DNA of 64,000 nt from Prorocentrum cordatum (lineage: Eukaryota > Sar > Dinophyceae > Prorocentrales > Prorocentraceae), in assembly GCA_963575745.1 (NCBI GenBank), contig CAUYUJ010006335.1, positions 951,262-1,015,261 of the forward strand, given 5' to 3'. The position numbers were made by a program, and so were the translations under genes. Shown in pieces: positions 1,830 to 39,234 of this stretch (the first letter of the stretch is position 1; each line of letters begins with the position of its first letter). The notes below the pieces were generated by a model. It ran no database searches and was not told where the DNA came from. It was given only the letters and a program-made list of their open reading frames with translations.

Positions 1830-1851
1830 CTTGAGCCAAAATGGCTACGGA
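1830..1851 (-). other. Full-length dinoflagellate spliced leader (DinoSL)
   Basis: The minus strand reads T, then CCGTAGCCAT followed by TTTGGCTCAAG. This matches all 22 positions of the known DinoSL consensus (first base A, G or T). The 5'-most T is also compatible with the flanking GGA repeat, so 21 nt are secure. Confidence 0.95.
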
Positions 1852-3885: not shown

Positions 3886-4666
3886 GACACTCGATTATGC
3901 ACATACACATTACACCAGAGAAAAGCCCCAATCCGTGGATGGTTTTCGCCGAGGAGATCGACCGGGAGCACGGGAGCCCGGGAGCTCGACGCCTCCCCCC
4001 CCTGAGCCGGTCCCCCTCTTGATATTCCCCCTCGTCCCCCCTTCCCTCCTGCCCTGCCAAGAAGGAGCGCACCAGATCTCCCACATGCTGCCTTTCCGCG
4101 GCCCGGGCGTTTCTCTGAGATCTCGGCCTCTGGGGTCCGCTTTCGGATTCCATGAGGGTCGGACATGGATCCAGTGCAAAGTGGTCGGGGTTTCGGGCCT
4201 CGCGTTGGTCAGGATCATACCTATACGACCACCCTTCGGGTGACAAGGAAATCCTGTGGGGGGGGGGGCGGGGGCAACTGATGACAACTGCAGTGGCTGT
4301 GATGGTGACGACGCCGGTGGATACGAGTTGGCCACGACGCGCGACGACGGTGCTTGTGACAATGCGCGATGGCGACGAACGGCGGCGATGACAGTGACAC
4401 TGCATGTGGTAGTGGTGACGCGTGGCGGCGATGCCTGTGATGAGCGGGGCATCGCAAAGAGGCAGCGCACAACAGAAACAGTGCATCAATCGACTTCGGC
4501 TGGTAGAGCCTGGCTAGCGGCACGACGCATCCGCAACGGCGCACTCGCACCAGTGATTACGTCACCACCGCAGTCGCAGACAGATAAATGCCACCTGAAT
4601 TGCTGGAGGTTGCACTTAGTTACTTGCAAGCGACCCCTGTGGCGCGACCAACGGGCTCCACTAATC
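3886..4666. other. No recognisable gene; GAC/GGCGA-rich stretch
   Basis: Includes 4280-4450 with loosely repeated GACGACG/GGCGATG words. Frames on both strands are open over short stretches but give no recognisable product. Confidence 0.5.
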
Positions 4667-10260: not shown

Positions 10261-10379
10261 AGGCGCGAGGAAGCACCACGTTGTCGGACAGTGCAGCACA
10301 CCCCCAGGCCTGGAGGAGATCGGCACACATCGCGCTGGGCCTCTGTCCGGAGACATCGGCTCGAGGGAACACTACCATG

Positions 10380-11560
10380 CCAACGACGGTCTACTCGGTC
10401 AGCCCCGCCTACGGCAACCACGCCCGCGATGCAGCGGAGCCCAGGCCGGCGCCGACCACCCGGCGCGCCTCCGACTGGCGCGGCGGGCACGGGCCGCCAG
10501 GCCCTTCGGGCTCCCGCCGGGGCTGGACATCCCAGGCGCCGCTGAGCGACAGGCCCGCAGAGGTCTGTTCGCGGCGGGCGCCGCTGTGTCTGCGGCGCTC
10601 GCGACTGGCGGTGCGTCGGGTGCGACGCGTCACCGTGCGTTCGTACCTGCTGGCGCTGACCATGCGCTCGGGCTCGCCGCGGCTGCTGGCGCTGCCGGGC
10701 TGGATCCCCGCGCAGTCGGACGGGGCGCTGGTGGACTACTCCGAGTGGGCCTTCGACCGCGGCATGGGTCAGGAGGCGTCCTCTCGCACCCGCTGTGCCT
10801 TGGCTGGGGGCGAGCCCGCGCTGGGAAGGCCCGTTCGGCGCCTCTTTCCCCCCGCGAACGCGTCGCTGTCAGGCGGGACGCAGCGCCCGTCGGGCCACTC
10901 CCGCCAGCCGCTGCCGCGGGCGCCTGCGCGGGCGATGGCGGCCGCGCTGGCCTCGCGGGGGAAGCCAGACTCGGGGCGGTGCGTCTTGGCGACCTTCGAG
11001 TACGACCTGGGCCCGTCGGAGACCACGACCTTGTTGGCCATGCAGTTTCTGCCAGGCAGGTGCAGAGTGGTCAGAGGGCTGCAGCAACCCCTCCTGCTCC
11101 TGCACCCAGAGGGACTTACTACCAGCTCCTGGACGGGCGAATTCGACTCCACAGTGGGGCTCGACCTTCATCGACGTCACGGGATTGGGCGCGCTGTCGC
11201 GCGGCTGCAGCTGCTTCGTCTCGGGGACGAGCTGCTGTTCGTGAGCTCGCGCCCGCAGCGCCTGGCGGACTTCCATGTTGCCTGTCAATACCTCAAGCTC
11301 GAAGGTTTGGACTGCTCGCCACACTTCCTGAGGCACGGCGACGCGACATACGTCTGCGTTGCAGGGTACCGCGCACTGCTGGAGGTGCGGAGGCGAGAAA
11401 CGTGGAGGACGACTTCGCCAGTTCGGAGGTGCGACAAGGCCGGTCGGCTGGCGGTGGTCAGGCAGGCCCTCAGCAGCGCCCAGAGGAGGAGCTGCGAGAT
11501 CTGGGCGGCAGCCGCCCCGCAGCTCTTCGACATCGCCCACGTGCTGCCCTCCGCGCCGGC
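10380..11560 (+). pseudogene. YR-1 tyrosine recombinase
   Basis: Frame 3. An N-terminal SAM-like part (SYLLALTMR; DGALVDYSEWAFDRG near 10720-10760) is followed by the catalytic part with DLGPSE (11004-11021), a VARLQLLRLGDELLF strand region, LRHGDATY (~11328) and WRTTSPVRRC. Recombinases of this family normally have Arg in the L-R-P-S/G-E motif; here it is Gly (11010-11012). Aligned with the YR-2 recombinase in this window, which has Trp then Tyr nine residues later, the tyrosine position is Cys (TGC, 11430-11432). Two catalytic residues therefore appear lost. The frame change from RNase H lies somewhere in 10260-10400. Confidence 0.7.
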
Positions 11561-12325
11561 CGCCTTGGCGAGCGGCGGGCGTTCCTGGATCTCTTCTCAG
11601 GCTCGGGTGGCCTCGCCGCCGAGCTAAGGAAACGGGGGCACGCGGTGGTTTCAATTGACGTTCTCCTGGGCCCAGAGTGCGACTTGCTGCAAGATGATGT
11701 CTTCCGCGCCCTTCGAGGCTGGCTTGAGTCTGGTATCATCTGGGGCATGTTTTCAGGCAGCCCTTGTGAAAAATGGTCACAGGCGCGCAGGGCTCCGCCT
11801 CACAGTGTGATGCCTCGTCGCTTACGGACGAAGGAGCACCTGCGAGGCCTGCGAGGCCTGGAGGGCGCCGACTATCACGATGTCGTTACCTCGAACAAGC
11901 TGGCTGACAGAGGCGCACTCTTGCTAGGCATCGCCCTGAGACGCCAGCTGCCAGCTGGAGAGGAAAATCCCGCATCTAGTTTGCTGCGGCTGCTCCCCAG
12001 CCGCCAGCGTTTTCACTCTCATGCCAATGTCCAGACTGTTGTCTTTGACTATTGCGGTGCTGGCCGTCCTTTTCGTGCGCGCGCTCGTATGGCATTCGCC
12101 AGTATATCTGTTCCGCCAGAGCTATGCACATGGCACTGTAAAGGCAGGGGTGTTTGCGCGTTTTCGAGCAAGCCGCGCCTTGTTCTGTCTGGTAAGTCCA
12201 AGGCCGGCTTCCTTACTCATCTTAAAGCTTCCTACCCCCCGCGCCTGTGCTCCGTGCTCGCTCGAGAACTTTCTCACAGTTATTTGTCTCTGCGGGCTCG
12301 CCGCCTGTGGAATTTGATGCGGTAA
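11560..12325 (+). CDS. YR-1 C5-methyltransferase-like domain
   Basis: Frame 2. FLDLFSGSGGLAAELRKRG (from 11582) has the shape of motif I, the AdoMet-binding DLFxGxGG of cytosine-5 methyltransferases. It is followed 50-60 residues later by GSPCEKWSQAR (Cys ~11765; the P-C loop with the catalytic Cys) and later by EENPASS (~11957), comparable to the ENV/ENP motif IV. Spacing suits a compact C5-MTase catalytic half; the C-terminal target-recognition part is not evident. DIRS-order elements often carry a methyltransferase module, and retroelement capture of cytosine methyltransferases is known in dinoflagellates. The domain is in a different frame from the recombinase, with a change near 11560; the frame then stays open to TAA at 12323. 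Confidence 0.65.
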
Positions 12326-18960: not shown

Positions 18961-20057
18961 CTGGGCTGCTGCGCTGGTCGGCGAAAGTCCTCTGACGTAC
19001 ACTGCCTCGCGTTTGTCCCACTGACTTCCCGATTGGCATCGCCTCCAGTTCGGTCGTGCCCTCGTTCGCCACCCCTTCCTGCTCGTGCTGCTCCCCTCCC
19101 TCCCTCCCTGCCTCCCCTCTCCATCCCCACCTCGCCCTCTCTCGCCCTGTTCGTTCCTCCCCTCCGCTCCCCTCCCCGTCCGCTCCATTCTCCCCCCATT
19201 CCTACTCCCTCCCTCCTCGTCTCTGTCTTCTTGCCCGTCTCTGTCTCGACGCTTCTGCTGCCCATGTCTCGCGTTCCCTCCCTCGCTGACCCTCTCGCTC
19301 CGCCTGCCCTGCCTCCGCTGTGCCCTCGCGCTGCGGACGGCGCGTGCCACATCTGATGGCAGCAGCAGGCAGCGCGGTGTTTTCCGCGCAGGTCGGCATC
19401 GAGCGGCGACGGTAGGACGGTGAGGGAGCTAGGCGACGCCAGCACAATCCCTTCTCTTTGCACGCTCGGTTTTCTTCCGCCTCGCTTGCCTTGCATCCTC
19501 CTTTCCACTCCCCCTCTTCTCACTCCGTCGCCGTTCGCCCTAGGTCTTCGCCTCCTCTATCAATATTTGCTCGCGCCTGCCCGGTGCATCCTTCATCGCC
19601 TCTTCCCTCTTCCCTGTTTCCAGTCTGCTTGCGTTCCCCCTCCCTCTTCGATCCTTTCCGGCCTCTCTCCCAGTCGTTTGTTCTCCTGCGCCGCGAGCAA
19701 TTCCTACCCGCCCCTGGTGACAATCATTTGATTTCGTCCTTACGACTGGCCCCTATTGCACTGTGATGAGCAATCTGCGGGAGATGCTGACATTTAGGCA
19801 AGCTGCAAGACGCGTACACGGTTGCGCATGTTGCCGCCCCCACAATTGGGATTTGCAGCCTCTCACCTTGATTAGCTCATTAGCTTGGGGGGGTTGGGGA
19901 TATTATTTTTGGACCACTCTGCTGTGCTGGAGAGCCCGCCCTCATACGAGGATGTGGAGATGGCCGCGCACGAGGATGTGGACATGGCTTCTTCCAAGGA
20001 CTGGTTCATCTCGGTTGCTTTTTCGCCGCGCAGCTGCAGCAATTCATGAAGTTTTCG
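18961..20057. other. No recognisable gene; includes polypyrimidine tract 19075-19250
   Basis: CT-rich in the first half and mixed afterwards. No domain-bearing frame on either strand. Confidence 0.5.
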
Positions 20058-20873
20058 AAGACGCCTACGGCGAATCACCGCCTCCCCCTGCCTTTTTGGA
20101 AGCGCCTATGCGGCCGAACGTTGAGGCCAGACCTGCCAAGCTATTGGACAACGTGTTCCCCGAATCGGTTTGGAAAGCCTTCGGGAAACACGTGGGCATC
20201 TTGAAGGTCATCTTGGCCGTCTTGAGGCCATTTTGACCCTTTCGGGCCTTCTTCGAGGACGTCTTGGAGGACTCTTGGACCGTCTTGGAGGCCATCTTGA
20301 GCGTTTTGGAGACCTCTTGGGCCGTCTTGGGGGCCTCTTGGGACCGTCTTGGGGGCCTCTTGGGCCGTCATGGGGCCATCTTGGAGGCCTCGTGGATGCT
20401 CTGGGGGCGATCTTGGGGGCCTCTTGAGCCGTCTTGGACAGAGGGAAGGCTTAAAAGAAACATATGTCAAAATCATAGAAAAACCAATGGAAAATCAATG
20501 ATGTTGGCCTCTTCGGGCTCTCCTGGGGGACCTCTTGGCGCCCTCTTGGGCCATTTTGAGGCCATCTTGGAGCCATCTTGGCCCGTTTTGAGGCTTGGAC
20601 GATTTAGAAGGCATCCTGGTCCCTCTTGGGCCGTCTTGGAGGCCATCTTGGACCATCTTGGGCGAACTTGGAGACCATCCTGGGCCATCCTGGCCGTCTT
20701 GGAGGCCATCTTGGGCCAACTTGGGGCAACAAAGGCATCGACGGATGCGTTTTGAGATCCTTCCCGGGACCCCGGCGGGACGCGCATGAGCCCCAGGGGG
20801 AGATCTTTTGGAAAAGAACCAAAACCAAAACCGATATCTTCGAGCACGCCAAGCACCCTTGCGATGAATCGAC

Positions 20874-20921
20874 AGGGGGCGGCGGATCGAAGACGCCTAC
20901 GGCGAATCACCGCCGCCCCCT
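20874..20921. repeat. Array hairpin AGGGGGCGGCGG / CCGCCGCCCCCT, copy 1
   Basis: Perfect 12 bp arms (20874-20885 and 20910-20921) around a loop containing GAAGACGCCTACGGCGAATC. Copies follow at 22411-22458 and, with one changed base, at 23996-24043. Confidence 0.88.
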
Positions 20922-22410
20922 GCCTTTTTGGAAGCGCCTATGTGGCCGAAGGTTGTGGCCAGAGGCCTGCCAAGCTATCGGACCATGTGTTCCCCGAATC
21001 GGTTTGGAAAGCCTTCGGGGAACACGTGGGCATCTTGAAGGTCATCTTGGCCGTCTGGAGGCCATTCTGACCCTTTCGGGCCTTCTTGGAGCACGCCTTG
21101 GAGGGCTCTTGGGCCGTCGTTGAGGCTATCTTGAGCGTCTTGGAGACCTCTCGGGCCGTCTTGGGGGCCTCTTGGGGCCGTGTCTTGGGCCTCTTGGGCG
21201 ATCTTTGTGGGCACTTGGGCCGTCTCGGGCCGTCGGAAGGCATAACAAAAAGCAAATGCCACAATCCTTCAAGAACCCATGCCAAATCAATGATTTTGGC
21301 CTTTTCGGGCCTTCCTGGCGGCCCGCTTGGAGACCTCTTGGGCCGTCTTGGGCCATCTTAGAGCCATGTTCGGCCGTCTTGGTGGGCTCCTGGTCCGTCT
21401 GACGCCGTCGGAAGCCGTTTGGGGGGCCTCTATGGGCCGACTTGGGGCCCTCTTGGAATGCTCCAGGGCCGTCTTGGAGGCCATCTTGAGCGTCTGAAAG
21501 GCCTCCTGTGCCGTCTTGGAGGCCGTCTTGGGGCCCTCTTGGGCCGCTCTGGGGCCATCTTGGAGGCCTCTTGGGCGATCTTTCGGCGATCTTTGGGGGC
21601 TCTTGGGCCGTCTCGGGCCGTCGGAAGGCCGAAAAGAAGCACATGTCAAAATCTGTCAAATACCTTAAGGAAATCAATGTTTTGGGCCTCTTCTGGCCTT
21701 CCTGGAGGCCCTCTTGGGGGCCGCTTGATCCGTCTTGGGTCAGCCTTGAGCCAACTTCGGCCATCCTGGTGGGTTCCTGGCACGTCTGACGCCGTCGGGA
21801 GCCGTCTTGGGGCGCTCTTTGGGCGCTTCGGGGCCGTCTTGGAGGCCATCTTGGGCGTCTTGGAGGCCCTCTTGGGCGTGTTAGAGGCCTCTTGGGCCGT
21901 CTTGGGGCCCTCTTGGGGCCGTCTTGGAGGCCACTTGGGCCGCCTGGGGCCCTCTTGGGGGCCTCTTGGGCGATCTTGGGGGCCTCTTGGGCCGTCTTGA
22001 GCCGTCGGAATGCCGAGAAGAAGCAAATCCCCAAATCCTTCCAGAACCTAGGGAGAATCAATGATTTTGGCCTCTTCGGGCCCTCCTGGAGGACCTCTTG
22101 GAGGCCTCTTGGAGGCCTCTGGGGGGCCTCTTGGGCCGTCTTGGACTCTCTTGGGCCGTCTTGGAGGCCATCTTGGCCGTCTTGGAGGCATCTTGAGGGT
22201 CATCTTGGACCATCTTGGAGGCCATCTTGGGCCAACGTGGCCATCTTGGCACCATCTTGAGCCATCTTGGAGGATTTGTTTCCGGATTGAGCGCCTTTCC
22301 GGGTGGCTTGCGGGACGTGCCGGAGCCCCAGGGGGAGTTTTTTCGGAAAAAGAACCAAAACCAAAACCAGAGAGGGTCCAGCACGCCAGGCACCCCTGTG
22401 ATGAATCGAC

Positions 22411-22458
22411 AGGGGGCGGCGGATCGAAGACGCCTACGGCGAATCACCGCCGCCCCCT
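22411..22458. repeat. Array hairpin, copy 2
   Basis: Same 12 bp arms and loop as copy 1, 1537 bp downstream of it. Confidence 0.88.
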
Positions 22459-23995
22459 GCTGCCTTTTTGGAAGAGCCTGTGTGGCCGAAGGTTTCGGCC
22501 AGAGGCCTGCCAAGCTATCGGACCATGTGTTCCCCGCATCGGTTTGGAAAGCCTTCGGGGAACACGTGGGCATCTTGACGGTCATCTTGGCCGTCTGGAG
22601 GCCATTCTGACCCTTTCGGGCCTTCTTGGAGGACGTCTTGGAGGGCTCTTGGACCGTCTTGGAGGCCACCTTGAGCGTCTTGGAGACCTCTTGGGCCGTC
22701 TTGGGGGCCTCTTGGGGCCGTGTCTTGGGCCTCTTGGGCGATCTGTGTGGGCACTTGGGCCGCCTCGGGCCGTCGGAAGGCGGAACAAAAAGCAAATGCC
22801 ACAATCCGTCAAAAAACCAATGGCAAATCAATGATTTTGGCTTTTTCGGGTCTTCCTGGAGACCCTCTTGGAGACCTTTTGGGCCGTCTTGGGCCATCTT
22901 AATTAGGGCCATGTTCGGCCGTCTTGGTGGGCTCCTGGTCCGTCTGACGCCGTCGGAAGCCGTTTGGGGGGCCTCTATGGGCCGACTTGGGGCCCTCTTG
23001 GGCCGTCTTGGAGGCCATCTTGGGCGTCTGAAAGGCCTTCCGTGCTGTCTTGGGACCGTTCTGGGGCCATCTTGGAGCCCTCTTGGGCCGTTCTGGGGCC
23101 ATCTTGGAGGCCTCGTGGGCGACCTTTCGGCGATCTTTGGGAGCTCTCAGGCCGTCTCGGGCCGTCGGAAGGCCGAAAAGAAGGATACGTCAAAATCAGT
23201 CGAATACCTTAGGAAAATCAATGTTTTTGGCCTCCTCTGGCCTTCCTGGAGGCCCTATTGGGGGCCTCTTGGGCCGTCTTGGGCCAGCTTCGAGCCAACT
23301 TCGGCCATCTTGGTGGGTTCCTGGCTCGTCTGACGCCGTCGGGAGCCGTCTTGGGGGCCTTTCTGGGCCAACGGGGGACCCTCTTGGGGCGCTTCGGGGC
23401 CGTCTTGGATGCCATCTTGGGTGTCTTGGAGGCCATCTTGGGCGTGTTGGAGGCCTCTTGGGCCGTCTTGGGGCCCTCTTGGGGCCATCTTGGGGGCCAC
23501 TTGGGCCGTCATGGGGCCCTCTTGGGGGCCTCTTTGGCGATCTTGGGGGCCTCTTGGGCCGTCTTGAGCCGTCGGAATGCATAGAAGAAGCAAACCCCCA
23601 AATCCTTCCAAAACCTTTGGAAAATCAATGATTTTGGCCTCTTCGGGCCCTCGAGGAGGACCTCTTGGAGGCCTCTTGGGCCGTCTTGGAGACCTCTGGG
23701 GGGCCTCTTGGGCTGTTTTGGGCCGTCTTGGACTCTCTTGGGCCGTCTTGGAGGCCATCTTGGACCATCTTGGGCGGACTTGGAGGCCATCTTGGACAAT
23801 TTTCGAGGCCATCCTGGGCCAACGTGGCCATCTTGGCGCCATCTTGAGCCAGCTTGGAGGATTTTTTTCCGGTTTGAGCGCCTTTCCGGGTGGCCGGCGG
23901 GACGTGCCGGAGCCCCAGGGGGATTTCTTTTAGAAAAGAACCAAAACCAAAACCGAGAGGGTCCAGCACGCCAGGCACCCCTGCGATGAATCGAC

Positions 23996-24043
23996 AGGGG
24001 GAGGCGGATCGAAGACGCCTACGGCGAATCACCGCCGCCCCCT
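23996..24043. repeat. Array hairpin, copy 3
   Basis: Left arm AGGGGGAGGCGG has one mismatch to the right arm; located 1585 bp after copy 2. Confidence 0.85.
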
Positions 24044-25248
24044 GCCTTTGTGGAAGCGCCTATGTGGCCGAACGTTGAGGCCAGACCTGCCAAGCCATCG
24101 GACCATGTGTTCCCCGAATCGGTTTGGAAAGCCTTCGGGGAACACGTGGGCGTCTTGATGGTCATCGTCGCCGTCTTGGAGGCCTCTTGGGCGATCTTTC
24201 GGCGATCTTTGGGGGCTCTTGGGCCGTCTCGGGCCGTCGGAAGGCCGAAAGAAGGGAAATGCCCAAATCCATCAAAAACCTTTGGGAAAATCAGTGATTT
24301 TGGCATCTTTTGGCCTTCCTGGAGGCCCTCTTGGGGGCCTCTTGGGCCCTTTTGGGCCAGCTTCGAGCCAACTTCGGCCATCTTGGTGGGTTCCTGGCAC
24401 GTCTGACGCCGTCGGGAGCCGTTTTGGGGGCCTTTCTGGGCCAACGGGGGACCCTCTTGGGGCGCTCCAGGGCCGTCTTGGAGGCCATCTTGGGCGTCTT
24501 GGAGGCCATCTTGGGCGTGTTGGAGGCCTCTTGGGCCGTCTTGGGGCCCTCTAGGGGCCATCTTGGAGGCCACTTGGGCCATCATGGGGCTCTCTTGGGG
24601 GCCTCTTGGGCGATCTTGGGGGCTTCTTGGGCCGTCTTGAGCCGTCGGAGAGCCGAAAAGGCGCAAATGCCAAAATCCTTCAAAAACCAATGGAAAATCA
24701 ATGATTTTGGCCTCTTCGGACTCTCCTGGAGGACCTCTTGGAGGCCTCTTGGGCCGTCTGGGAGGCCTCTGGGGGGCCTCTTGGGCCGTCTTGGGCCGTC
24801 TTGGACTCTCTTGGGCCGTTTTGGAGGCCGTCTTGGACCATCTCGGGCGGACTTGGAGGCCATCTTGGGCCATCTTCGCGATGTTTTGAGGATGTCCCGA
24901 GCGAAACGGCCGTTTTTGGGCACGGTGGCGGGACGGGCCGGAGCCCACTGGAGAGTTCTTTTGGAAAAAGAACCAAAACCAAAAATTAACAGCTCATCCA
25001 GCACGCCGTGCACCCCTGCAAGCAGGGGGCGGCGGATCCAGCTGCTTGCGGCAAGTCCCGCCACCGTGCCAACCCAGCAATCTGGGTGGCGATAGTTCCA
25101 GGGTGCATGGGAGGTCGTCACGTGTAACACCTCGTGTCTCAAGGCTTGGGAGAGCCATGATGAGGATGACGAGACTATATGGATGGTGGGGGTGATGACG
25201 ATGACAATAAAATATTCTGATTGTAATCAAGCTGCTGCAGCTGCTGCT

Positions 25249-28884: not shown

Positions 28885-28942
28885 TGCTCCTTCTTATCCC
28901 CATCGCGCCCGCTGATTGCAGTCGTCTGCAGCTTCTCGGCCC
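28885..28942 (+). repeat. YR-2 split direct repeat A1
   Basis: 58 bp starting TGCTCCTTCTTATCCCCATC and ending CTTCTCGGCCC; identical to A2. Confidence 0.95.
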
Positions 28943-29214
28943 GATAGCTGCCCCGCTCGCCCCCCACTCCCCTCCCCGCGCGCGCGCGGCCGGGGCGCCA
29001 GGGGCCCGCGGGGCCATCGCCGTTCAGGTTTCCTCGACACCTACGCGGCGATCGTCGACTCCGGGTTCGCCACCCCGCGCTGGCCCAAGTCGGTCGGGCC
29101 GGCGCCTGTGGCCCGTACGACGAGAGCGAGCGTCGGGGCCGACCGTCCGTTCTGAGCGGTGGTCGGTCGGGCAGGCGCGCCTTTCGGCACCCTGCCTGCC
29201 GTGGCCACTGGGCC

Positions 29215-32200
29215 TTGCTAGCACCGTCGCTGCTCGCTCTTCGGCGGGCGGTGCGGACAGGGCCCATGCCACGTCCTGCCGTTGGCAGGTCTCTCCAGCC
29301 TGCACCAGTCTGGTGGTCTTCGGCGCTCTCCACGCCGACTTCGGCGCAAAACTCCTCTCCCTCCTCCTTCGCCTTCTCCCCCTTGGCCTTTGGGGCGGCG
29401 GAGCAGGAGGCCCATCTGAGGAGAGGAGTAGGAGGGGGGCCTCACACGCCGCAGCGCCACGCCTTGCGCCGTGGCGCAGCGCCAGCCCTCGTCTCGGGCG
29501 TTCAAAGTGCCGCCGCGCCTGGGGTCTCAGCCGCCGCTTCTACGCAAGACTTTCAGCCGCCGCGACAGAGACGCCCGACGGAGGGCACAGTGGCCAAAGG
29601 CGCTCCGACGCGCCGCCCAAGGGCTTCAGCCGCCGCGCAAGCCATGCCCGCCATTCCTGCTGCCAGCGAACCCAATGCCAGCGTGTTCAACGCCGAAGCA
29701 CCAGAGGGGTGCCCTGCGAAGATAACTGCGCTCTTGGGAAGGGAAGTGGTGGACGAGGATCTCTCTTACCTCCCCCCAACTCCTTCTCCTTGCCTCTACT
29801 CCGCCACCTGGCTCACCTGTGCCGCTAGGCATGGCGACCACTTTGTGGGCCCCGCCTGCTCCACCGTGGGCGGGGGAGCGTCACTCGCGGGGCACACGGG
29901 CTTTGCCGCCGCCTCGGTTTCCTGGCCTTCGGCTGGAGGCATCGCCGCGGCCACTTCTGCCGACGATGCTGCTCGGACCGCCGGGGGCGGATACATTCGC
30001 GCACCTCCAGGCTTGGACCCGCTGCCTCCTGGGCCTCCGGTCAGGCAGATTGGGCCGCCTCCGGGCCTTGACGTCTTGGAGGTTGGTTCCCAGAGGCTCA
30101 GTGCGGCATGCCCGCGCCGTGGCGCGGCTGCGGCTTGGAGCCCCACGGTCGTCTATCAGGTCCGACCTGGGGCCACGGCGTCAGAGGCCGCGCTTCCTCT
30201 ACTGAGGACGCCGCCTCCGCCGCCACAGGGTCGCCCCTGGAGCGGTGCGTTGGCCCTGGTGGAGGCGGGGTGCTCCGTCGTCCCTCCTCGGGGTTCTTCG
30301 GCGGCCATGTCCGACTGCGGCCTTGACGGGGGTAGTCCCTCCTTTTCGAGGGCGGCGCCGCGGTGTGGCTCGAAAGGGGTTGGTATGCGCCCTGCCAGCG
30401 ATGCTGATACGGCCCCGCAGGGAGGGGCTCGTACCGCCCCCCCAGCCGCCACCGCAGTCCACCAGCCTGGCACCCCGCCGCGGAGCGGCCCCAGGGCCAC
30501 CTCGGCCTTACGCGCCGACCTCCACTTGTGGGACCTGCACACGGGCTCCGACACTCAGGGTGTGGATCCGCCGCCAGGCCTCTCCGGCTCCGAAGCAGGC
30601 TCACGGGTGCCGCCTTTGGTCGACCTCCGCGCGGCCCTTGCCTCGGATGGGGTGCAGCTGTTTAGCAGCGGGAGTATGCCGTGCACTGCGGCGTCGCCAC
30701 TTCTGTCCGAGCGCTTCACGGTCGCCGACGGTGACCGCGCGGCCAGCGGAACACCCCTGAGCGCGGACTGGCATCGTGTCTCCGGGGATTCGCCCTCCCA
30801 GGCCAGGCATCTGAGGCCACCGTCCGGAGTTGCCGTCCCAGAAGCGGATGTTCATGCGCCGCCGCCGCTCCACCGTAGCGCGGTTGGTCCCGCCTCACTT
30901 CGGGCGGGCGCTGCCCGTGGGCGCATGTGGTATGGTGAGCGCGCAGGGCTCCTGCCTTTCACTAACCTCGAGGGCGGTGTCGGCGCGCCAGCTGCCGGAG
31001 GGCCACCTCCCCAGTCAAGCGCCCGGGGCGCTTGCACTTGTAACGCAGCGGGCACTCAAGCAGCGGAGTCAACTCCAGGCCTCGTCGGCTCCGCCGCGGG
31101 CTCCTCGGGTGAAGGCGTCGCCGCAGCCGCAGCCATTCCAGCGCGGCCCCGACGCCTCTCGTGCGATCGGATCCAGGGCCTCGCCGCGTCGATCCCTGCT
31201 CGCGCTCGCGAGCGCCTGCTGGCCGACCCTCGTGGTCTGAGCTCTTCTCCGTCACCACTGGTAGGCATGCGCCCTTCCAGCGATGCTGTTACGGCCCCGC
31301 AGGGAGGGGTTCGTGCCGCCGGTGGGAAGTCAGGAGCGGGCTCGTCCACGGCGGCCGCGACGCCCCGGGATGCGGTCCCTGCGTTCTGCTCTGTCCGAGG
31401 GGCCGCTTTCGCCACGGGCTCCTCGGGCGAATGCGCCGCCGCAGCCGTTGCCACTCCAGCGCGGCCCCGACGCCTCTCGTGCGATCGGATCCAGGGCCTC
31501 GCCGCGTCGATCCCTGCTCGCGCTCGCGAGCGCCTGCGGGCCGACCCTCGTGGTCTGAGCCCTTCTCCGTCCCCACTGGTCGGCATGCGCCCCTCCAGCG
31601 ATGCTGTTACGGCCCCGCAGGGAGGGGTTCGTGCCGCCGGTGGGACGTCAGGAGCGGGCTCGTCCGCGGCGGCCGCGACTCCCCGGGATGCGGTCCCTGC
31701 GTTCCGCTCTGTCCGAGGGGCCGCTTTCGCCGCGGGCTCCTCGGATGAAGGCGTCGCCGCAGTCACTGCCACTCCAGCGCGGCCCCGACGCCGCTCGGCC
31801 TCCACCAACAGCGCTGCCGCACTCCCCGCCTTCAGGCTCCGACGAGTTCGTCGGGTCCGCACTCGGCGTGGAGGACGGCGGGGTCGTCGGGCCGTCGATG
31901 GTAGCTGCCGTGCCGCTCACGCTCCAGCCCATGCTGGTGCAGCTGCCTCGTCTTCGGACGCCCTTTCTGGTGCTTCAGAGGCCGCTTCTGGGGCCCCTGT
32001 CCAAGGGAGCCGCCGCTCGCGCTTCAATCGGAGCGTGCGCGAGGATGCGGCAGCAATGTTGCGCTTCGGAAGTGCACCGCCCGTTGTCGTGCCTCCTGCG
32101 GCTGGAGCCCCGCCACGGTTTTCAGCTTCAGCCGAAGCTGCGGGGGCCCCGTCGGTAGGCATGTGCTCTGCCGGCGATGCTGGTGCGGCCCCGCAGGAAG

Positions 32201-35200
32201 GGGCTCGTGCCGCCGACGGGGTCACCGCGGAGGGGGGTGCACGCGCCGCCCAGGCCAGCGGTTACCAAGGCGGAGCCCCCGACGAGCCTCCTCGGCTCCA
32301 AGCTGTCGGTGGCCCTGCCCTGGACCAAGAGGGCTCCGGGCAGCCCCGAGCCGGCCCCGCCGACCAAGGTGCCTCTTACCCCCAATCTGTTGGAGCCGCC
32401 CACGTCGGGCGGGTCGAACGGGGTGCTGGATGTGCTCGGCCGCCGCCGCTGGGGAGGTCTCATCCCGCGGCCGCCGCCCGCCGCTTCTGGACCGAGCGAG
32501 GTCGCGATGGTAGGGATGCGCAGGTGCAGCGCGGCTGTTTCGGCGCCGCTGGGCCCCGTGCGTGCCGCCATGGTGATTCTCGCTCGCTCCCAGGCGCTTC
32601 CCCCGCTCCTCCTGGCCATCCTGGTCCCAGCGTGGGCGTCGGGGCGCGCCCTGCGCCCTTCGCGCCTTGCCCTTTTCCCAGCACATCCCGTACCAGCACT
32701 GGCACTGGCAGGTCTGCGCCTTTCGTGGCCGATCTGTCCGCCTTGCTGCGCCTGTTTCCAGGCGCCAGCATCGACGTCACCCACTGGGCCGCTGCTCTTG
32801 CCCAGGTCGGGATGGGGACTCGATGCTCCCTTGCCGCTTTTACCCGCACATCTTTCTGCGCGCTGGAATGGGACGACTCGTACTTGTCGGGGTCGGCTCC
32901 CCGCGATCCTTGGCCGTGCCCTCCCTCGCCGCCTCTTCCGCCGCCACCTGGTCACCTTACGGGTCGCGCGCGGGAGCGCTGGCGTGTGAGGCGCGCCGCC
33001 CGCACGTTGTCGCAGCATGCTGTCGTTGCGCTCAACTGGCTCACCTTGGGTCATCCCAGCTTCGCTCCCGCCGAAGCTCGGGTGCGGGAAACGGTCACAC
33101 CCTGCCAGGAGGGAGTTCGCAGTCGCCTCGAGCGTCTGTGTCGGATCGCAGTTCGCCTTGCCCGTGGTGGCAAGAGCGACCTTGGTCGGGCTTTCGCCAA
33201 GTTCGACTCCACCGAAGTCTCGCTCCATGGCCTGGCTACCCATGTTGCAGCTCTTGAGGCTTCGTTCACCTCTTCCTCACAAGTGCCCGCCCCCATGCGG
33301 CAACTCCCCGTCAGCGCGACGCCCCTGGCAAGCTCGTTGGCGGCCGCGGCAGGCTGGGACTCCACCCAGGCTGAGCCTTTCGACCTTCGGGTCCAGGCGT
33401 CCCGCATCAAGTGGGATTACTCTCCTACGTTTGATCCCACTCCGTACTTGTCCGACGATCTGGTACGTTCCGCCTTTCATGACCCCGACGTCATGCGGCT
33501 ACCAGAGGACGAGTGGCCTTCGGGCTTTTCGGGTGCTCGTGTGCACATGGACCGCGAGCAGCTGTGGGAGCTCTTGCGCAAGTGGGACTCTTGTGGCGCC
33601 CTGTATCTGACCCCCTCCGACAACCTCGCCTGGGACGAGGCTTGTGGAGCGTTCAGGGTCCCGAAGGACGAGGCTCATGACCGTCTCATCCTGAATCCGA
33701 CGGTAGTAAACAGTCGTTGCAGCAGCGTGTCCTCCAGCACTCAGCGCCTCGGCCAGGGTTTCCTCCTGTGCCGCCTGGGGCTCGCGCCCGGGGAATGGCT
33801 GGTGGTTTCGTGTGACGACCTGCGCGAGTTCTACTACACGTTCAAGGTCCCGCCCGCTCGTGCACGCCGCAACGCCCTCCGCGTCAAGCTACCCAGCTCG
33901 CGGTTCAGAGGCTTCAACGCGTGGCGGGCAGACCTTGAGGGGTTGGACGTTTCTCCCTGCCTTAATGCGCTGGCCATGGGTGACAACATGGCAGTGGAGA
34001 TCGCCAACTCCGCACACGAGGGCGTGCTGCGCAGCTTCGGCGCGCTCCGGCCTTCCGAGCAGGCTGTGCATCGCCTGCCGTTCCCTCGGGGGCCGTACGT
34101 CGAGATGTTAAACATCGACGACCACACGGGCTTTCAGAAGCTCTCGTGGCGCGGGAGCGCCCCGCGCCCCGACGACCCGACACGCCGCGACAGGGAGGTC
34201 TTTGCTGCGTGCGATCGCGGCTACCCCCAGGTGGGTCTCATTCAGCACCCCGGGAAGAGAGCCAGGGGCGAGACCCAAAAAGTCGTTGTCGGCGCCGAGG
34301 TGGAGGGCAGGATCGGCATCGTGTGTGCTCCCCTGGTTCGCACTGTGGCCCTTTGCCGCTTGACTCTGATTCAGGTGTTCCTCGGTCGCTCGACCCGGGC
34401 GTTGTTGAGCTCGCTCGTGGGTTGTTGGGTGCAGGTGTTTTTGTATCGTCGTCCCATCCTGTCGATATTCACTCACATCTACACCTTCATCACGACACTT
34501 CCCGACGACGGGCTTGAGTATGAGCTCCCGTCTTCGGTTCGCGACGAATTGCAAGCCTGCACCTACCTTGCCTTCGTTGCGATGACCGACCTTCGGGCGA
34601 CGCCTTGCCCTGAAGTGTTCGGCACGGATGCCTCCCTCGGCTGGGGCGGTGTTGTCCGCAGCGACATCAGTTCGCACCTGTCACAAGAATTGTGGCGGCG
34701 CTCCGAGCACGGCGGCTGGCATACTCGTCTCCACGACCGCCACTTGCTCATGGTTCTGAGCCGCGGGGAACCTTTAGGCCCCGAGCTGACCCAGATACAC
34801 CGCGAGGTGGGGCTTCCCTCCCTCGAGCTCCCCATCGCACCGCGCTGGGTCAGTGAGCTGTCGGAGGCGCTGCGTTTCCGTTTGGCCTACAAGTGGGAAT
34901 TCCGCACGCCCCGCCACATCAATATCCTGGAGACCACCGTGTTCAAGAGTCTGTGCAAGTACTGTTGCATCCGCAACCCTGACTCACGGATCCCTGTTCT
35001 CTTGGATTCCCAAGTGGCACTAGGCGCGGCCGCCCACGGTCGGAGCAGCAGCCCTGGCCTTTCGCACGTGTTGAGCACCTGCTTGCCCTACATTTTGGGG
35101 GGCGGGCTCTACATGGGCGGGCTCTACGTCCCGACCGACGTCCACCGAGCGGACGACCCCACGCGCAATCGCCCTGTTCGCCCCCCCTCGCGTGTCGAGC

Positions 35201-38200
35201 CTGCTTGGTTGCTTGACATAGACGAGGGTCGCTTTGAGCGATTCGACATGATAGCGGCCGCCGACGCCGCCTCCGCGTACCCGACTTGTCTGTGGGGCCG
35301 GTTCGTGCTGCAAGTTCTGGCTCGCAGCCCCGCCGCGGGCGCAGGCCCGCTCGGGCACCCCGAGGATCGCCACGTGGGAGCGCCAGCCCGGGTCGACAGG
35401 GGCGACGCGACGGCCTCCGCCGAGGCCCGCGACGCATATGAAAGCGCCGCGCCGCGCAGGGGGGCTCCTGTCTCCGCCAAGGTGCCCTCGAGCGCGGCGG
35501 CGGTGAGCTTCTCCGCGTCGCGCTGCACTCGCGCCCGTGACAGCCTGCCGGCCGCCCCTCGGGTACCAAGCCCTTCGCCGTCCCCGCCGGTAGGCATGCG
35601 CCCTTCCAGCGATGCTGTTGCGGCCCCGCAGGGAGGGGTTCGTGCCGCCGGTGGAGGGCCAGGAGAGGGCGCGCCCGAGCGGAGGTCACGCGCCAAGAGC
35701 GACGCAATCGCCGCTGCTCGACCTGGTACGCCCAAGGGGGACGCTCACCCCGTCTCGCTTCTGTCGGAGGCGAACGGCTCGGTTCCAGCTTCGTTGGGGG
35801 GTCTTCTGGGTCGTCCGTCCGTCACGACTCAGACTCGCCACCGCCAAGATCGTGCCGCCAAACTTGTTGCCGCGCTCGATTTGCTCCACCTGGAGCGCGG
35901 TGCGACCACTGATCGCGTGAACGCTCAGTTTCGACGGATGGGTTGGGCCTGCCATCCCGACCGCGATAAGTCGATCGAGGCCAGCAGGAAATGGCGTGCT
36001 CTCTGTGACGCCAAAGCCTTCCTCCTCGGGCCTGGGCGCGATGTTACCGGCCCCGATGCCCCGGCCTCTGGCGGCGCTACTCGCCGTGCTTTGGGCAGAG
36101 GGCTCTTGGCGGCGGGAAGGCGTGACGACGCGAACCGCTCGCGCGGGGTCGCCACTCGGGATTCGGCTCTCGACGCCTCCCTCGGTGCTCGCCTCCGCGG
36201 CATGCCGGGGGAGCGTCGGAGCGCCCCTGGCGCGTCTCCAGACGCAGAGCCGAGCGCGGTCGCTAGCTGCAGCGACCCAGGGTCGCGGGCTGCGCCACGT
36301 TGTACGGTGCAGACCCCCGCGATGCCTACTGCCGCCATGCGACGCACGCAAGCTCGCCCGGAGGCCGACCTGGGGGCCGCCCGTACCGCGGCCGCGGTGC
36401 TCCCGCCCTTTCGAGCCAGCACCCTGCCCCCCCTGCCAGGGTGCCGCGCCGACGCCCATAGCGTCGCGCCGCGCGCCAGCTCTGCACCTGCCCTGCTGGC
36501 CGGGCGCTCGCTGGGCGCAGCGGCTATGCTGCGTGCTACCCGCGAGCGGACTGCCAGTGCGGCCACCGCCGGGGCGGCACATCACAGGGCCGTGCTTCCG
36601 TGGGGCCACAGCGCAGAGCGCAGCGAGGTGTCGCCGGCTCCCAGCTTTGCCGACTCCTGCTGCGCCGGCCAGCGTGCCGACTCTTGCGCCGCCCAGCTCA
36701 CCGCGTCCCGCGGCGACCAGCTCACTGACTTGCAGCCCTCCAAGCTCACCGACTCCCGCACCGACCAGCTCGCCGACTCCCGCGCCGACCAGATCGCCGA
36801 CTCGCGTGCCGAGGGGCTCGCCGACGCCCGCACCGACCAGCTCGCTGACGCCTTCACCCGTTCCGACTCCCGTGCCGATCCTCTCACCGGATTAGCATTG
36901 CGCACCAGCCGGGTCGTTGGCCCGACGGCCACGGTTGCGAGGCGCGTGCGTGACGAACGGCGCGCTCTGGCGCGGTTCCGTGCCTCGGTCGATGTTCTCG
37001 ACGCCGCTCTTACCGAAGTTGAATTCGGTCGAGGCGCGGAGGCTTGGGGTCCAAGTGCAGGAGAGCTGGCTGAGCTTTTGCAGACGACACTGGCCGAGCT
37101 CGAGCGCCAGAAGGCTGCGTTGCGCATCGCCCGCTCTCGCACTGCCGAGTGCGTCAGAGGGTCCGCTTCCGCCTCGGGCTTTTCGGGTGGAGGCGCCGCC
37201 GCAGCCGCTGCCGGCGCACCCCCGAGAGCTCCCGCCACGGCTGGTAGCGCTACTTTTGCAGCTCAAGCGAAGGAGCGTGCGGATAAGCACCCGGCTAGCT
37301 ATCGCGACGTGGTCGAGGCTAGGGCTCATTCGGGCGCCCAGGCGTCGCATCCGCGCAAGCGCCGTGGCGTCGGGCGCCCGTGCTCTGCGGCGCCCGTCAC
37401 GCCACGGACCGCCATTAGTTGCGATGAGCGCTCCCGCTCCGCAGCACCTGCCGCCACCCGCTCGGCCGCGTTTTCCGAGACGCTGTGCGCTGTTGACCGC
37501 AGGCGGCGCGAGCACTCCCCAGGACTCAGGCCTCTGATCCTGGACGGCACGGACCGCCAGCCGGAAGCCGCGCCGAGCACCGGCGAGGTCGTCGAGGCCC
37601 CCCGCGCCGAGCAACGCGGCCGCACCTCGCGTCGCAAGCGCAGGCGTGTTCGGGCTTCCGCCGGAGCGGCAGCTACCACTCCTGCCAATCCCTCTGGTCA
37701 AGAGCCGCCCGCGTCAGCCTTCGTGGCAGGGCGCCAGGACTGGCCTGCCTCTCTGGAGCCTGCCCTTCCCGAGGGGGCTTCCGAGGCCCTCGGGGTGAAG
37801 GTGGAGAGCCACTCTCGGCGCGTCCCCTCTTGCGGCGACCAGCGCACTCGTTCGCTTAAGGCGTTTGACGTGTGGTGCGCCGAGCACACAGGAGTGGCAC
37901 TTGCCACATGGGCTCGCAGCGGCATCTTGCTCGGGAGAGCGCTCGCGACCTTCGGCGTGTGGTTGTACGATGCTGGCTTCCCCCGCCTCGTCCTCGTGAA
38001 TGCGATCCGGGGAGCACAGGCCCTTCAGCCCCACTGGAGGGGCTTCCTCACCGAGGCGTGGGATGTGGCGGAGCGGTGGATCCCTTCCAAGCCTCCCTGT
38101 CCCCTCCCACCGCTACCGCGTGCTCTGCTGCGCGCCATGGTAGCGTTGTGCCTCGCATGGGACTGGCCGGATATGGCCACCCTGCTGCTTGCCGGGTTCA

Positions 38201-38793
38201 CTATGTCCGTGAGGCCTGGTGAGTTGGCAACCGCCCGCCGGAGCGACCTCACTCTGCCCATTGACCGCCGTGAGTCCACGGGCGACGCTTTGCTGAGCAT
38301 CTCTGTTCCGGAGGCCCGGGGGTCTGGCGGAGAGCGTCAACACGCTCGGTGCTCCGATCGTGCTGTGGTCAGGATGATGGAGCTGGTCTTTAGAGATTTG
38401 AGTCCCACCGATCCCCTATTGACCTTCGGTCAAAGCGGCTTCCGCACTCGGTGGCTCGATCTTCTTTCGGCGCTGGGCGTCCCGCTCGCCAGAGCGCCAT
38501 CGGGGTTCGATCTGTCCCCTGCGCTGCGCTTCAGAACCGATATTTCGGACGGCATTAATCGCGTCTTCTGGCGTGATCGCTGGCGGCTAGCTTCCAGTAC
38601 AGAGCGCTATCTCCACGATGCTGCCGCCTCTGCAGTCCTCCCATCATTGGCTGAAGCCGCTCGGGACCGCGTTTCTTACCTCGCCGAAGCAAGCGACCTC
38701 CTCGTCGCATCCTTTCTGAATGTTGGCCCAGCTGTGTGGCCCATTCAGCTCGCGGCCGCCCGCCGAAACCTTGTCACTTCGCAAGGGCTTTGA
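29215..38793 (+). CDS. YR-2 polyprotein: RT, RNase H, J-domain-like segment, tyrosine recombinase (3192 aa)
   Basis: Single frame of 3192 codons. Residues 1-1380 are Pro/Ala/Gly/Ser-rich with no recognised gag fold and with repeated VGMRPSSDAV modules (~390, 683, 789, 981, again 2126). RT spans ~1387-1760: FRVPKDEAHDRLILNP, motif A CDDLREFYY (Asp 1534/1535), GDNMAVEIANSAHEG, motif C LNIDDH (Asp 1635/1636). RNase H spans ~1800-1985: TDASLGWGG (Asp 1805), NILE (1903-1906), LLDSQVALG (Asp 1931), VHRADDPTR. A J-domain-like segment spans ~2219-2275 with HPD at 2247-2249. A TDQLADSRAD repeat spans ~2496-2560. The tyrosine recombinase spans ~2870-3170: SVRPGEL (Arg 3000), GERQHARC, WRLASSTERYL (Tyr 3132). 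The start may instead be Met 18. Two domains are certain by motif (RT, RNase H); the recombinase is strong. Confidence 0.88.
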   Translation: MLAPSLLALRRAVRTGPMPRPAVGRSLQPAPVWWSSALSTPTSAQNSSPSSFAFSPLAFGAAEQEAHLRRGVGGGPHTPQRHALRRGAAPALVSGVQSAAAPGVSAAASTQDFQPPRQRRPTEGTVAKGAPTRRPRASAAAQAMPAIPAASEPNASVFNAEAPEGCPAKITALLGREVVDEDLSYLPPTPSPCLYSATWLTCAARHGDHFVGPACSTVGGGASLAGHTGFAAASVSWPSAGGIAAATSADDAARTAGGGYIRAPPGLDPLPPGPPVRQIGPPPGLDVLEVGSQRLSAACPRRGAAAAWSPTVVYQVRPGATASEAALPLLRTPPPPPQGRPWSGALALVEAGCSVVPPRGSSAAMSDCGLDGGSPSFSRAAPRCGSKGVGMRPASDADTAPQGGARTAPPAATAVHQPGTPPRSGPRATSALRADLHLWDLHTGSDTQGVDPPPGLSGSEAGSRVPPLVDLRAALASDGVQLFSSGSMPCTAASPLLSERFTVADGDRAASGTPLSADWHRVSGDSPSQARHLRPPSGVAVPEADVHAPPPLHRSAVGPASLRAGAARGRMWYGERAGLLPFTNLEGGVGAPAAGGPPPQSSARGACTCNAAGTQAAESTPGLVGSAAGSSGEGVAAAAAIPARPRRLSCDRIQGLAASIPARARERLLADPRGLSSSPSPLVGMRPSSDAVTAPQGGVRAAGGKSGAGSSTAAATPRDAVPAFCSVRGAAFATGSSGECAAAAVATPARPRRLSCDRIQGLAASIPARARERLRADPRGLSPSPSPLVGMRPSSDAVTAPQGGVRAAGGTSGAGSSAAAATPRDAVPAFRSVRGAAFAAGSSDEGVAAVTATPARPRRRSASTNSAAALPAFRLRRVRRVRTRRGGRRGRRAVDGSCRAAHAPAHAGAAASSSDALSGASEAASGAPVQGSRRSRFNRSVREDAAAMLRFGSAPPVVVPPAAGAPPRFSASAEAAGAPSVGMCSAGDAGAAPQEGARAADGVTAEGGARAAQASGYQGGAPDEPPRLQAVGGPALDQEGSGQPRAGPADQGASYPQSVGAAHVGRVERGAGCARPPPLGRSHPAAAARRFWTERGRDGRDAQVQRGCFGAAGPRACRHGDSRSLPGASPAPPGHPGPSVGVGARPAPFAPCPFPSTSRTSTGTGRSAPFVADLSALLRLFPGASIDVTHWAAALAQVGMGTRCSLAAFTRTSFCALEWDDSYLSGSAPRDPWPCPPSPPLPPPPGHLTGRARERWRVRRAARTLSQHAVVALNWLTLGHPSFAPAEARVRETVTPCQEGVRSRLERLCRIAVRLARGGKSDLGRAFAKFDSTEVSLHGLATHVAALEASFTSSSQVPAPMRQLPVSATPLASSLAAAAGWDSTQAEPFDLRVQASRIKWDYSPTFDPTPYLSDDLVRSAFHDPDVMRLPEDEWPSGFSGARVHMDREQLWELLRKWDSCGALYLTPSDNLAWDEACGAFRVPKDEAHDRLILNPTVVNSRCSSVSSSTQRLGQGFLLCRLGLAPGEWLVVSCDDLREFYYTFKVPPARARRNALRVKLPSSRFRGFNAWRADLEGLDVSPCLNALAMGDNMAVEIANSAHEGVLRSFGALRPSEQAVHRLPFPRGPYVEMLNIDDHTGFQKLSWRGSAPRPDDPTRRDREVFAACDRGYPQVGLIQHPGKRARGETQKVVVGAEVEGRIGIVCAPLVRTVALCRLTLIQVFLGRSTRALLSSLVGCWVQVFLYRRPILSIFTHIYTFITTLPDDGLEYELPSSVRDELQACTYLAFVAMTDLRATPCPEVFGTDASLGWGGVVRSDISSHLSQELWRRSEHGGWHTRLHDRHLLMVLSRGEPLGPELTQIHREVGLPSLELPIAPRWVSELSEALRFRLAYKWEFRTPRHINILETTVFKSLCKYCCIRNPDSRIPVLLDSQVALGAAAHGRSSSPGLSHVLSTCLPYILGGGLYMGGLYVPTDVHRADDPTRNRPVRPPSRVEPAWLLDIDEGRFERFDMIAAADAASAYPTCLWGRFVLQVLARSPAAGAGPLGHPEDRHVGAPARVDRGDATASAEARDAYESAAPRRGAPVSAKVPSSAAAVSFSASRCTRARDSLPAAPRVPSPSPSPPVGMRPSSDAVAAPQGGVRAAGGGPGEGAPERRSRAKSDAIAAARPGTPKGDAHPVSLLSEANGSVPASLGGLLGRPSVTTQTRHRQDRAAKLVAALDLLHLERGATTDRVNAQFRRMGWACHPDRDKSIEASRKWRALCDAKAFLLGPGRDVTGPDAPASGGATRRALGRGLLAAGRRDDANRSRGVATRDSALDASLGARLRGMPGERRSAPGASPDAEPSAVASCSDPGSRAAPRCTVQTPAMPTAAMRRTQARPEADLGAARTAAAVLPPFRASTLPPLPGCRADAHSVAPRASSAPALLAGRSLGAAAMLRATRERTASAATAGAAHHRAVLPWGHSAERSEVSPAPSFADSCCAGQRADSCAAQLTASRGDQLTDLQPSKLTDSRTDQLADSRADQIADSRAEGLADARTDQLADAFTRSDSRADPLTGLALRTSRVVGPTATVARRVRDERRALARFRASVDVLDAALTEVEFGRGAEAWGPSAGELAELLQTTLAELERQKAALRIARSRTAECVRGSASASGFSGGGAAAAAAGAPPRAPATAGSATFAAQAKERADKHPASYRDVVEARAHSGAQASHPRKRRGVGRPCSAAPVTPRTAISCDERSRSAAPAATRSAAFSETLCAVDRRRREHSPGLRPLILDGTDRQPEAAPSTGEVVEAPRAEQRGRTSRRKRRRVRASAGAAATTPANPSGQEPPASAFVAGRQDWPASLEPALPEGASEALGVKVESHSRRVPSCGDQRTRSLKAFDVWCAEHTGVALATWARSGILLGRALATFGVWLYDAGFPRLVLVNAIRGAQALQPHWRGFLTEAWDVAERWIPSKPPCPLPPLPRALLRAMVALCLAWDWPDMATLLLAGFTMSVRPGELATARRSDLTLPIDRRESTGDALLSISVPEARGSGGERQHARCSDRAVVRMMELVFRDLSPTDPLLTFGQSGFRTRWLDLLSALGVPLARAPSGFDLSPALRFRTDISDGINRVFWRDRWRLASSTERYLHDAAASAVLPSLAEAARDRVSYLAEASDLLVASFLNVGPAVWPIQLAAARRNLVTSQGL
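31080..31745 (+). repeat. 318 bp tandem duplication inside YR-2 coding region
   Basis: Two ~318 bp (106-codon) copies: the GTAGGCATGCGCCC word lies at 31261 and its equivalent at 31579, and the surrounding GCGATCGGATCCAGGGCCTC blocks also recur at the same spacing. A partial third copy follows to about 31790. The length is a multiple of three, so the frame is kept. Confidence 0.9.
35866..36035 (+). other. J-domain-like segment (HPD motif) within YR-2
   Basis: Encodes LDLLHLERGATTDRV, then QFRRMGWACHPDRDKS, then SRKWRALCDAKAFLL. This gives a helix I with hydrophobic spacing, a helix II with basic residues running into HPD (codons 35953-35961, followed by Arg), and a helix III with the K-x-x-x-L-x-x-A-x-x-x-L pattern of DnaJ-type J-domains. 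J-domains stimulate the ATPase of Hsp70 through HPD. Neighbours in the polyprotein are the RNase H upstream and the TDQLADSRAD repeat downstream. Identification is by motif and helix pattern only. Confidence 0.75.
36700..36890 (+). repeat. 24 bp-type repeat encoding (T/A)DQLADSR
   Basis: About eight units of GACCAGCTCGCCGACTCCCG or close variants. They encode an acidic, hydrophilic repeat (DQLTDLQ, DQLADSR, DQIADSR, DQLADAF) likely to be helical or disordered. Confidence 0.8.
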
Positions 38794-38804
38794 GCCTGGG
38801 TATG

Positions 38805-38969
38805 GCTGCTGCGGCCTCCCTTGGCCGCCCGGGTGCCCTCGTTGGACGAGGCCGCCTGAGAGCGTCGCACGGCCCGCCCGCGTAGGCCTGTCCCGCTTTA
38901 CGGGCCGCCGCGGGCGCGCGCCGCGCGTTCGCCCTGAGACGACTGCTCACTTGCGCAGCGTGCGGGGAT
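38805..38969 (+). repeat. YR-2 split direct repeat B1
   Basis: 165 bp starting GCTGCTGCGGCCTCCCTTGG and ending GTGCGGGGAT, 12 bp after the polyprotein stop; identical to B2. Confidence 0.95.
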
Positions 38970-39026
38970 GCTCCTTCTTATCCCCATCGCGCCCGCTGAT
39001 TGCAGTCGTCTGCAGCTTCTCGGCCC
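38969..39026 (+). repeat. YR-2 split direct repeat A2
   Basis: Identical copy of the element's 5' end, directly joined to B1. Confidence 0.95.
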
Positions 39027-39069
39027 CCTCCCTCTCTCCTCCCTCCTTCTTCGAAGGCTGACCTGCGGC

Positions 39070-39234
39070 GCTGCTGCGGCCTCCCTTGGCCGCCCGGGTG
39101 CCCTCGTTGGACGAGGCCGCCTGAGAGCGTCGCACGGCCCGCCCGCGTAGGCCTGTCCCGCTTTACGGGCCGCCGCGGGCGCGCGCCGCGCGTTCGCCCT
39201 GAGACGACTGCTCACTTGCGCAGCGTGCGGGGAT
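39070..39234 (+). repeat. YR-2 split direct repeat B2 (3' end)
   Basis: Identical to B1 and followed at once by TCC-rich flank CCTTCTCCTCGTCG. Confidence 0.95.

Follow-up and report, generated by a model that had tools for sequence, protein, structure and literature searches.

A J-domain homologue with a variable HPD tripeptide in the polyprotein of a putative tyrosine recombinase retrotransposon of the dinoflagellate Prorocentrum cordatum

Results

A single long open frame lies between split direct repeats

The stretch of DNA analysed here, referred to as the window, comprises 64,000 nucleotides of contig CAUYUJ010006335.1 of P. cordatum (assembly GCA_963575745.1, positions 951,262 to 1,015,261 of the forward strand). 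It contains an element in which one open frame, with its first ATG at 29266 (residue 107), stands among split direct repeats arranged as A1-ORF-B1-A2-B2 (Table 1). Starting at 28885, 58 bp recur without a mismatch at 38969-39026. Because the repeats are perfect and the frame is intact, these observations indicate that the element is a recent insertion.

Table 1. Features of the element and of the J segment in the window
Feature	Positions	Strand	Basis
Repeat A1, left end of the element	28886..28942	+	Matches start of A2
Polyprotein open frame, intact	28948..38793	+	3281 codons, stop to stop
Reverse transcriptase (RT) region	33037..34600 (approximate)	+	Motifs VSCDDLREFYY, LAMGD, LNIDDH, by eye
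RNase H region	34615..35250 (approximate)	+	TDAS, ILE, LLDS, RADDPTR, by eye
Stretch in RNase H-to-J linker	35507..35677	+	82-83% identical to N-terminal repeat unit of same ORF
J-domain homologous segment, 63 residues	35854..36042	+	Pfam DnaJ match 35878-36024; profile comparisons
HPD tripeptide, CAT CCC GAC	35953..35961	+	Residues 2336-2338 of frame
Tyrosine recombinase region	37852..38790	+	RPGE, RYL, by eye; conserved among element families
Repeat B1, 165 bp	38805..38969	+	Repeat comparison
Repeat A2, 100 bp	38970..39069	+	First part identical to A1
Repeat B2, right end of the element	39070..39234	+	100% identical to B1 over 165 bp

We assigned the labels RT, RNase H and recombinase by visual inspection of motifs and by position, not by profile. 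In searches with pieces of the window and with alignments of the element families described below, the RT and recombinase stretches produced no relevant hit with Pfam, PHROGs or PDB profiles, and the RNase H stretch had none in Pfam or PHROGs. The three stretches are common to eight database proteins without informative names, and a recombinase profile that includes the window's own sequence also detects element families B, C, D, F and G.

In its N-terminal part, the ORF is duplicated in tandem at 31092-31797 (offset 318 bp). The repeat unit (31178-31354 and 31496-31666) has a diverged further copy in the linker between the RNase H and J stretches, and the linkers of the element may thus grow by internal duplication.

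The segment between RNase H and recombinase is homologous to the J-domain

When the whole ORF was scanned against Pfam with E-values up to 10, DnaJ was the sole family returned (residues 2311-2359, 35878-36024, E 8.7e-4). The match lies between the RNase H-like and recombinase-like stretches, and its E-value was 5.1e-5 when a piece of 300 residues was used and 5.3e-6 with a piece of 91 residues; the latter corresponds to 26.9 bits, which is below the gathering score of 27.8, and all J copies scanned score below this cut-off. A search of the PDB with the 91-residue piece gave 27 sequences at E up to 10 (best 8.3e-4), all of which are J-domain proteins by name or, in the case of RabJ, WBSCR18 and HCG3, known as such. 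Against a profile of 13 host J-domains, the real segment scored 26.2 bits, while the best of 2000 shuffles, 1590 of which received a score, reached 9.2.

The J segments of related elements support the same assignment. Although those of the more distant families are only 31-41% identical to the window J over the aligned piece, they match Pfam DnaJ independently (E 7.4e-5 for family C, which has HPT in place of HPD, 3.5e-6 for F and 2.6e-3 for D). The J of family B (HPG, 87% identical to the window J) matches at E 6.3e-4, and that of family G has a weak score (E 0.25, 11.9 bits). In a comparison by hhalign, a profile of seven element J sequences matched eleven host J-domains with a probability of 97.4% (E 1.1e-11). 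With the family profile as query against the PDB, the best E was 1.9e-7, and the best 60 of 72 matches were J-proteins by name or by the known identity of the protein. Together, these comparisons confirm, at the level of sequence, that the segment is a homologue of the J-domain (DnaJ, PF00226).

An earlier note on this DNA, made from the letters alone, had proposed a J-domain-like segment in an intact frame between RNase H and recombinase, and had suggested the DnaJ profile as a check; Pfam, hhalign and the PDB profile search agree in bearing out this proposal, with a profile match that falls just short of the gathering score. The order of helices that the note had read around the tripeptide (I, II, HPD, III) recurs in two single-sequence AlphaFold models, in which three helices follow each other in J order. 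However, both models are of low confidence (mean pLDDT 57.5 and 58.6), and a fold search with them gave no J-domain fold among the matches.

The window J was not among the 150 scored Pfam DnaJ matches of the P. cordatum genome. Twenty-eight loci around some of these matches are without this RT or recombinase and look like host genes.

Seven element families have a J segment downstream of RNase H

To describe the relatives of the element, the genome assembly from which the window comes (4.13 Gb, 21,875 contigs) was searched. A query with RNase H and J had at least 104 scored matches, 101 of 104 spanning the position of HPD. Thirty-two of them, including the window itself, are 98-100% identical to the query, five are 94% and 43 are 91-92% identical; 14, which represent family C, have 62% identity and 10 are partial or placed otherwise. 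The J of family C as query gave 149 places, which overlap partly with these matches and revealed family D. These comprised 32 rows of family C, about 55 D-like rows, assigned by identity and range and with 26 sharing the same 3058-codon frame, and then copies of A, B and others. Families E, F and G were recognised by reading short stretches.

All seven families (A to G, the window belonging to A) have the J segment behind the RNase H stretch. Upstream, the window has the RT stretch, which was also recognised in copies of B, C, F and G; D showed the end of it. Downstream of J, the window and A2 have the recombinase stretch, as does the single copy examined of each of B, C, D, F and G. In the F and G copies it lies in an open stretch of its own; the part of family E that was read showed no recombinase. 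B1-A2-B2 repeats were found in one copy each of A2, B and C, and long open frames occur in B, C and D, each of which is present in multiple copies.

Between A and C (L038 versus 34900-36090 of the window), the RNase H stretch is 96% identical with dS 0.40, whereas J is 36% identical with dS about 2.2. This difference suggests that the element families exchange segments by recombination.

The HPD tripeptide has changed repeatedly

In a census of 53 copies, picked non-randomly from the genome match lists and with loci fetched twice counted once, 17 have HPD. The tripeptide is HPD in A and A2 (5/5), in the single copy of E, which has a stop shortly downstream, and in 11 of the 12 copies of F. By contrast, it is HPG in all 19 copies of B that were read (one copy is frameshifted), HPT (4) or HPA (5) in the nine copies of C, RPD in D (5/5) and RPG in G (2/2). 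The genome has 42 exact matches to the DNA of the A-type motif, and within the tripeptide A and B differ by a single base. With its HPD, the window copy is not one of the J-like kind with an altered tripeptide, to which the copies of B, C, D and G belong.

Because the changes differ in kind (D to G, D to T or A, H to R), they arose at least three times. B, C, D and G fall on separate branches in a small RNase H tree, which would make four independent losses, and we consider this number probable. In a tree built from J segments, however, G clusters with A and B, so that exchange between families is possible.

These data bear on two points of the earlier note. It had named a loss of HPD among relatives with RT and recombinase as grounds for rejecting its reading, and such a loss is found in families B, C, D and G. 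Its suggestion that the domain recruits Hsp70 through HPD is possible for A, E and F, in which the tripeptide is kept; because HPD is not kept in B, C, D and G, such recruitment would not be the shared role of the domain.

J is conserved between distant families, but recent changes do not set it apart

Among pairs of A, A2 and B, the J segment has a dN/dS of 0.31-0.78 and the linkers have 0.46-0.74; the corresponding values are 0-0.09 (RNase H) and 0.14-0.33 (recombinase). For the J segment, which with 59 codons is short for this comparison, the ratio does not differ significantly from that of the linkers (p 0.52-1.0), from neutrality (p 0.075-0.60) or from that of RNase H (p 0.09-0.37). The dN/dS comparison that the note had asked for is weak. 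Between A and C, the J ratio is 0.41-0.42, at a dS close to saturation. The B copies L032-L034 differ in J by two silent changes and no replacement, and the linker of a recombinant copy (L037) has a dN/dS of 0.82.

Over longer distances the picture is different. In a pairwise test that omitted family B, which is near-identical to A, J could be aligned in each of the 15 pairings among families A, C, D, E, F and G (z 14.8-28.3 versus shuffles), whereas the linker between RNase H and J was at chance in 13 of the 15 pairs (z -1.3 to 2.3) and above chance in two (A-C, z 15.8; E-G, z 17.2). Thus, J is conserved above most flanking linkers. In seven aligned J sequences (E left out), an R, an A, LL and an R of helix II, the P of the tripeptide and a W, a C, an A and an L are invariant. 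Residues specific to the element copies recur as C[DN]A[KR] in 8/8 and as QFR in 7/8 sequences.

A profile match alone is no proof of constraint. In a simulation in which host J-domains drifted at the linker rate, the two scores of a pair equalled or exceeded the scores of A and C in 1047 of 1684 or 420 of 1672 cases, depending on the depth assumed. This simulation of profile scores did not reject an explanation by drift only; the linkers at chance in 13 of 15 pairs disfavour it. We give the long-term conservation of J more weight than the short-term dN/dS because a drifting passenger should have dissolved as the linker did.

Relatives of the polyprotein in databases

A search of protein databases gave eight relatives of the window polyprotein. 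A query starting just behind the conserved RNase H and a recombinase query gave no relatives in the protein-database search, scans of viral and prokaryote contigs gave no relatives of the element, and a Pfam scan of the eight proteins with E up to 1 gave no matches. The end of the closest relative, P0002 (75% over 42% of the query), resembles the start of the J-domain (AARLDHARRVLGVGGSA). A pattern made post hoc from this end (VLGV..SA type) occurs neither in 107,195 six-frame residues of the window nor in the seven other relatives. However, the end has no significant score with Pfam or two J profiles, and of the 3264 17-mers in the ORF, 18 resemble it no less than the J start does; the resemblance is suggestive only. 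A match of P0003 to a J profile (E 0.0085 among the eight proteins) was set aside as chance, the best domain having E 0.075 and covering 15 residues in RT.

By eye, four of the eight proteins (P0003, P0007, P0008 and P0009) show, within or after RNase H, stretches resembling methyltransferases as well as NPGP motifs; they have no J by Pfam. The NPGP motifs (GIEPNPGP, GEAANPGP), which resemble 2A peptides, precede the recombinase-like part. The window ORF has no NPGP motif.

Discussion

In its organisation, the window element resembles elements of the Ngaro, PAT and VIPER groups, which are described as having split direct repeats in the order A1-ORFs-B1-A2-B2; methyltransferase or hydrolase is mentioned as an extra domain of such tyrosine recombinase (YR) retrotransposons (PMC6681497, PMC8547959). 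Like these elements, the window element has an A-ORF-B-A-B order and, to judge by motifs read by eye, putative stretches of RT, RNase H and tyrosine recombinase. It differs, in a comparison by arrangement and motifs alone, in that it has one frame of 3281 codons with a J-domain. A second parallel is found in the SymbioDIRS-Dnmt3 elements, YR retrotransposons of Symbiodinium in which a cytosine methyltransferase was captured in Pol between repeats of the order A-coding-B-A-B, and in which the RT reportedly aligns poorly with Pfam models (PMC5890265). Both are dinoflagellate elements with a captured host-type domain, the same repeat order and an RT poorly matched by Pfam. However, the window ORF has no methyltransferase match in Pfam at E up to 10, and DnaJ alone is found.

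J-domains occur in cellular proteins and in the T antigens of tumour viruses. The earlier note knew of no retrotransposon with a J-domain, and searches of open-access papers that combined J-domain or DnaJ with transposon topics brought up none; the main texts of PMC5890265, PMC6681497, PMC3783388 and PMC8547959 do not contain DnaJ. The window copy is homologous to DnaJ/Hsp40 (PF00226) over helices I-III and has HPD, while it differs in its position inside a retrotransposon polyprotein, in its score below the Pfam cut-off and in that four of the seven families are without HPD. HPD is described as essential for the interaction with Hsp70, and J domains without it are termed J-like (PMC11349236, PMC3196505). 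Among these, TbPam18 and TbPam16 are required for maxicircle replication, suggested to be independent of mitochondrial Hsp70 (PMC11349236), and CJD1 is a J-like protein that is kept without HPD (PMC3196505). Families B, C, D and G are similar to these proteins in that a J-derived domain is kept despite an altered tripeptide; the three proteins are, however, cellular and have a shown function, whereas that of the element J is one that we infer.

Based on these data, we suggest a model in which a captured J-domain is retained as a docking module in the polyprotein of a YR retrotransposon lineage, with HPD-dependent contact to Hsp70 in some families only; we assign this model a probability somewhat above one half (about 0.56). 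The data show the J homology, its position, the intact frame, the identical split repeats, the presence in seven families, a conservation that exceeds that of most flanking linkers and the repeated loss of HPD. In this model, a cellular DnaJ-type J-domain would have been captured into the polyprotein before the families seen here diverged. Capture would have taken place where RNase H and recombinase meet, a site that in some related elements has a methyltransferase-like stretch instead. The captured domain is predicted to fold as a J-type helical hairpin and, by analogy with TbPam16/TbPam18, may serve as a docking module for the assembly of the element's enzymes. In the families with HPD (A, E and F), J could also engage host Hsp70, while in B, C, D and G it would act without stimulating Hsp70, as in the J-like TbPam16/TbPam18. 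A more specific version holds that the lineage domesticated the J-domain and that at least three, probably four, families made it an Hsp70-independent J-like domain that, for example, docks or dimerises in a complex for reverse transcription and recombination; this version is tentative, with odds that we put slightly short of even.

A resemblance to the J-domain could also arise by chance or convergence, from a helical hairpin with an accidental HPD. That the scanned pieces score below the Pfam cut-off (G with 11.9 bits) and that the low-confidence models matched no J fold would fit this explanation, but the independent matches of sequences that are 31-41% identical, the E-values of the PDB profile search and of hhalign and the far lower scores of the shuffles make it hardly credible. 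If the homology is accepted, the domain might act as a canonical co-chaperone, in which HPD-driven stimulation of host Hsp70 folds or remodels element proteins and the families without HPD are failing or exceptional. This idea is in agreement with the intact HPD in the window, the 42 exact genomic sites and the HPD of E and nearly all copies of F. It is difficult to reconcile with the complete absence of HPD from the copies of B, C, D and G, with the long frames and high copy numbers of B, C and D (43, 32 and about 55 matches, respectively) and with the single base by which the tripeptides of A and B differ, and we regard it as clearly unlikely.

The last explanation to be considered is that J was captured but has long been jobless, drifts in a disordered linker and stays in frame only through the downstream recombinase. 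The recent changes between A and B fail to separate J from linker or neutrality and HPD was lost several times, as this explanation would predict; moreover, the null model does not reject drift at the linker rate between A and C. A passenger in this sense thus retains some weight. By contrast, the alignment of J across six families while the adjacent linker is largely at chance, and the recurrence of element-specific residues, argue against it, and we hold it to be rather unlikely.

As a conserved domain, the J segment would lengthen the list of host domains captured by YR elements. Moreover, the serial loss of HPD in one genome would provide natural variants in which to study the role of the J fold without Hsp70 stimulation.

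Additional observations

The recombinase of one copy of family C (L062) has TPVGLQ where the window has SPALR and P0003 has TPGVLR; we take the arginine at this site to be catalytic, and it is possibly changed in this copy. Elsewhere in the window, remains of another RT-RNase H-like element lie in three frames at 8266-12322 (+), without a J-domain match and with a methyltransferase-like stretch (FLDLFSGSGG ... SGSPCEKWS) read by eye. Positions 1830-1850 (-) exactly match the dinoflagellate spliced-leader sequence, which fits a dinoflagellate host, and 4664-6159 and 20055-24878 contain related repeat arrays that are 75-96% identical among the matches listed. In the genome, five loci (L010, L020, L025, L026 and L028) encode a J-domain protein that is unrelated and has, as judged by eye, a WW-like stretch. 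It lies within multi-kb repeats, long pieces of which are mostly 89-98% identical to L026, with stretches of N nearby.
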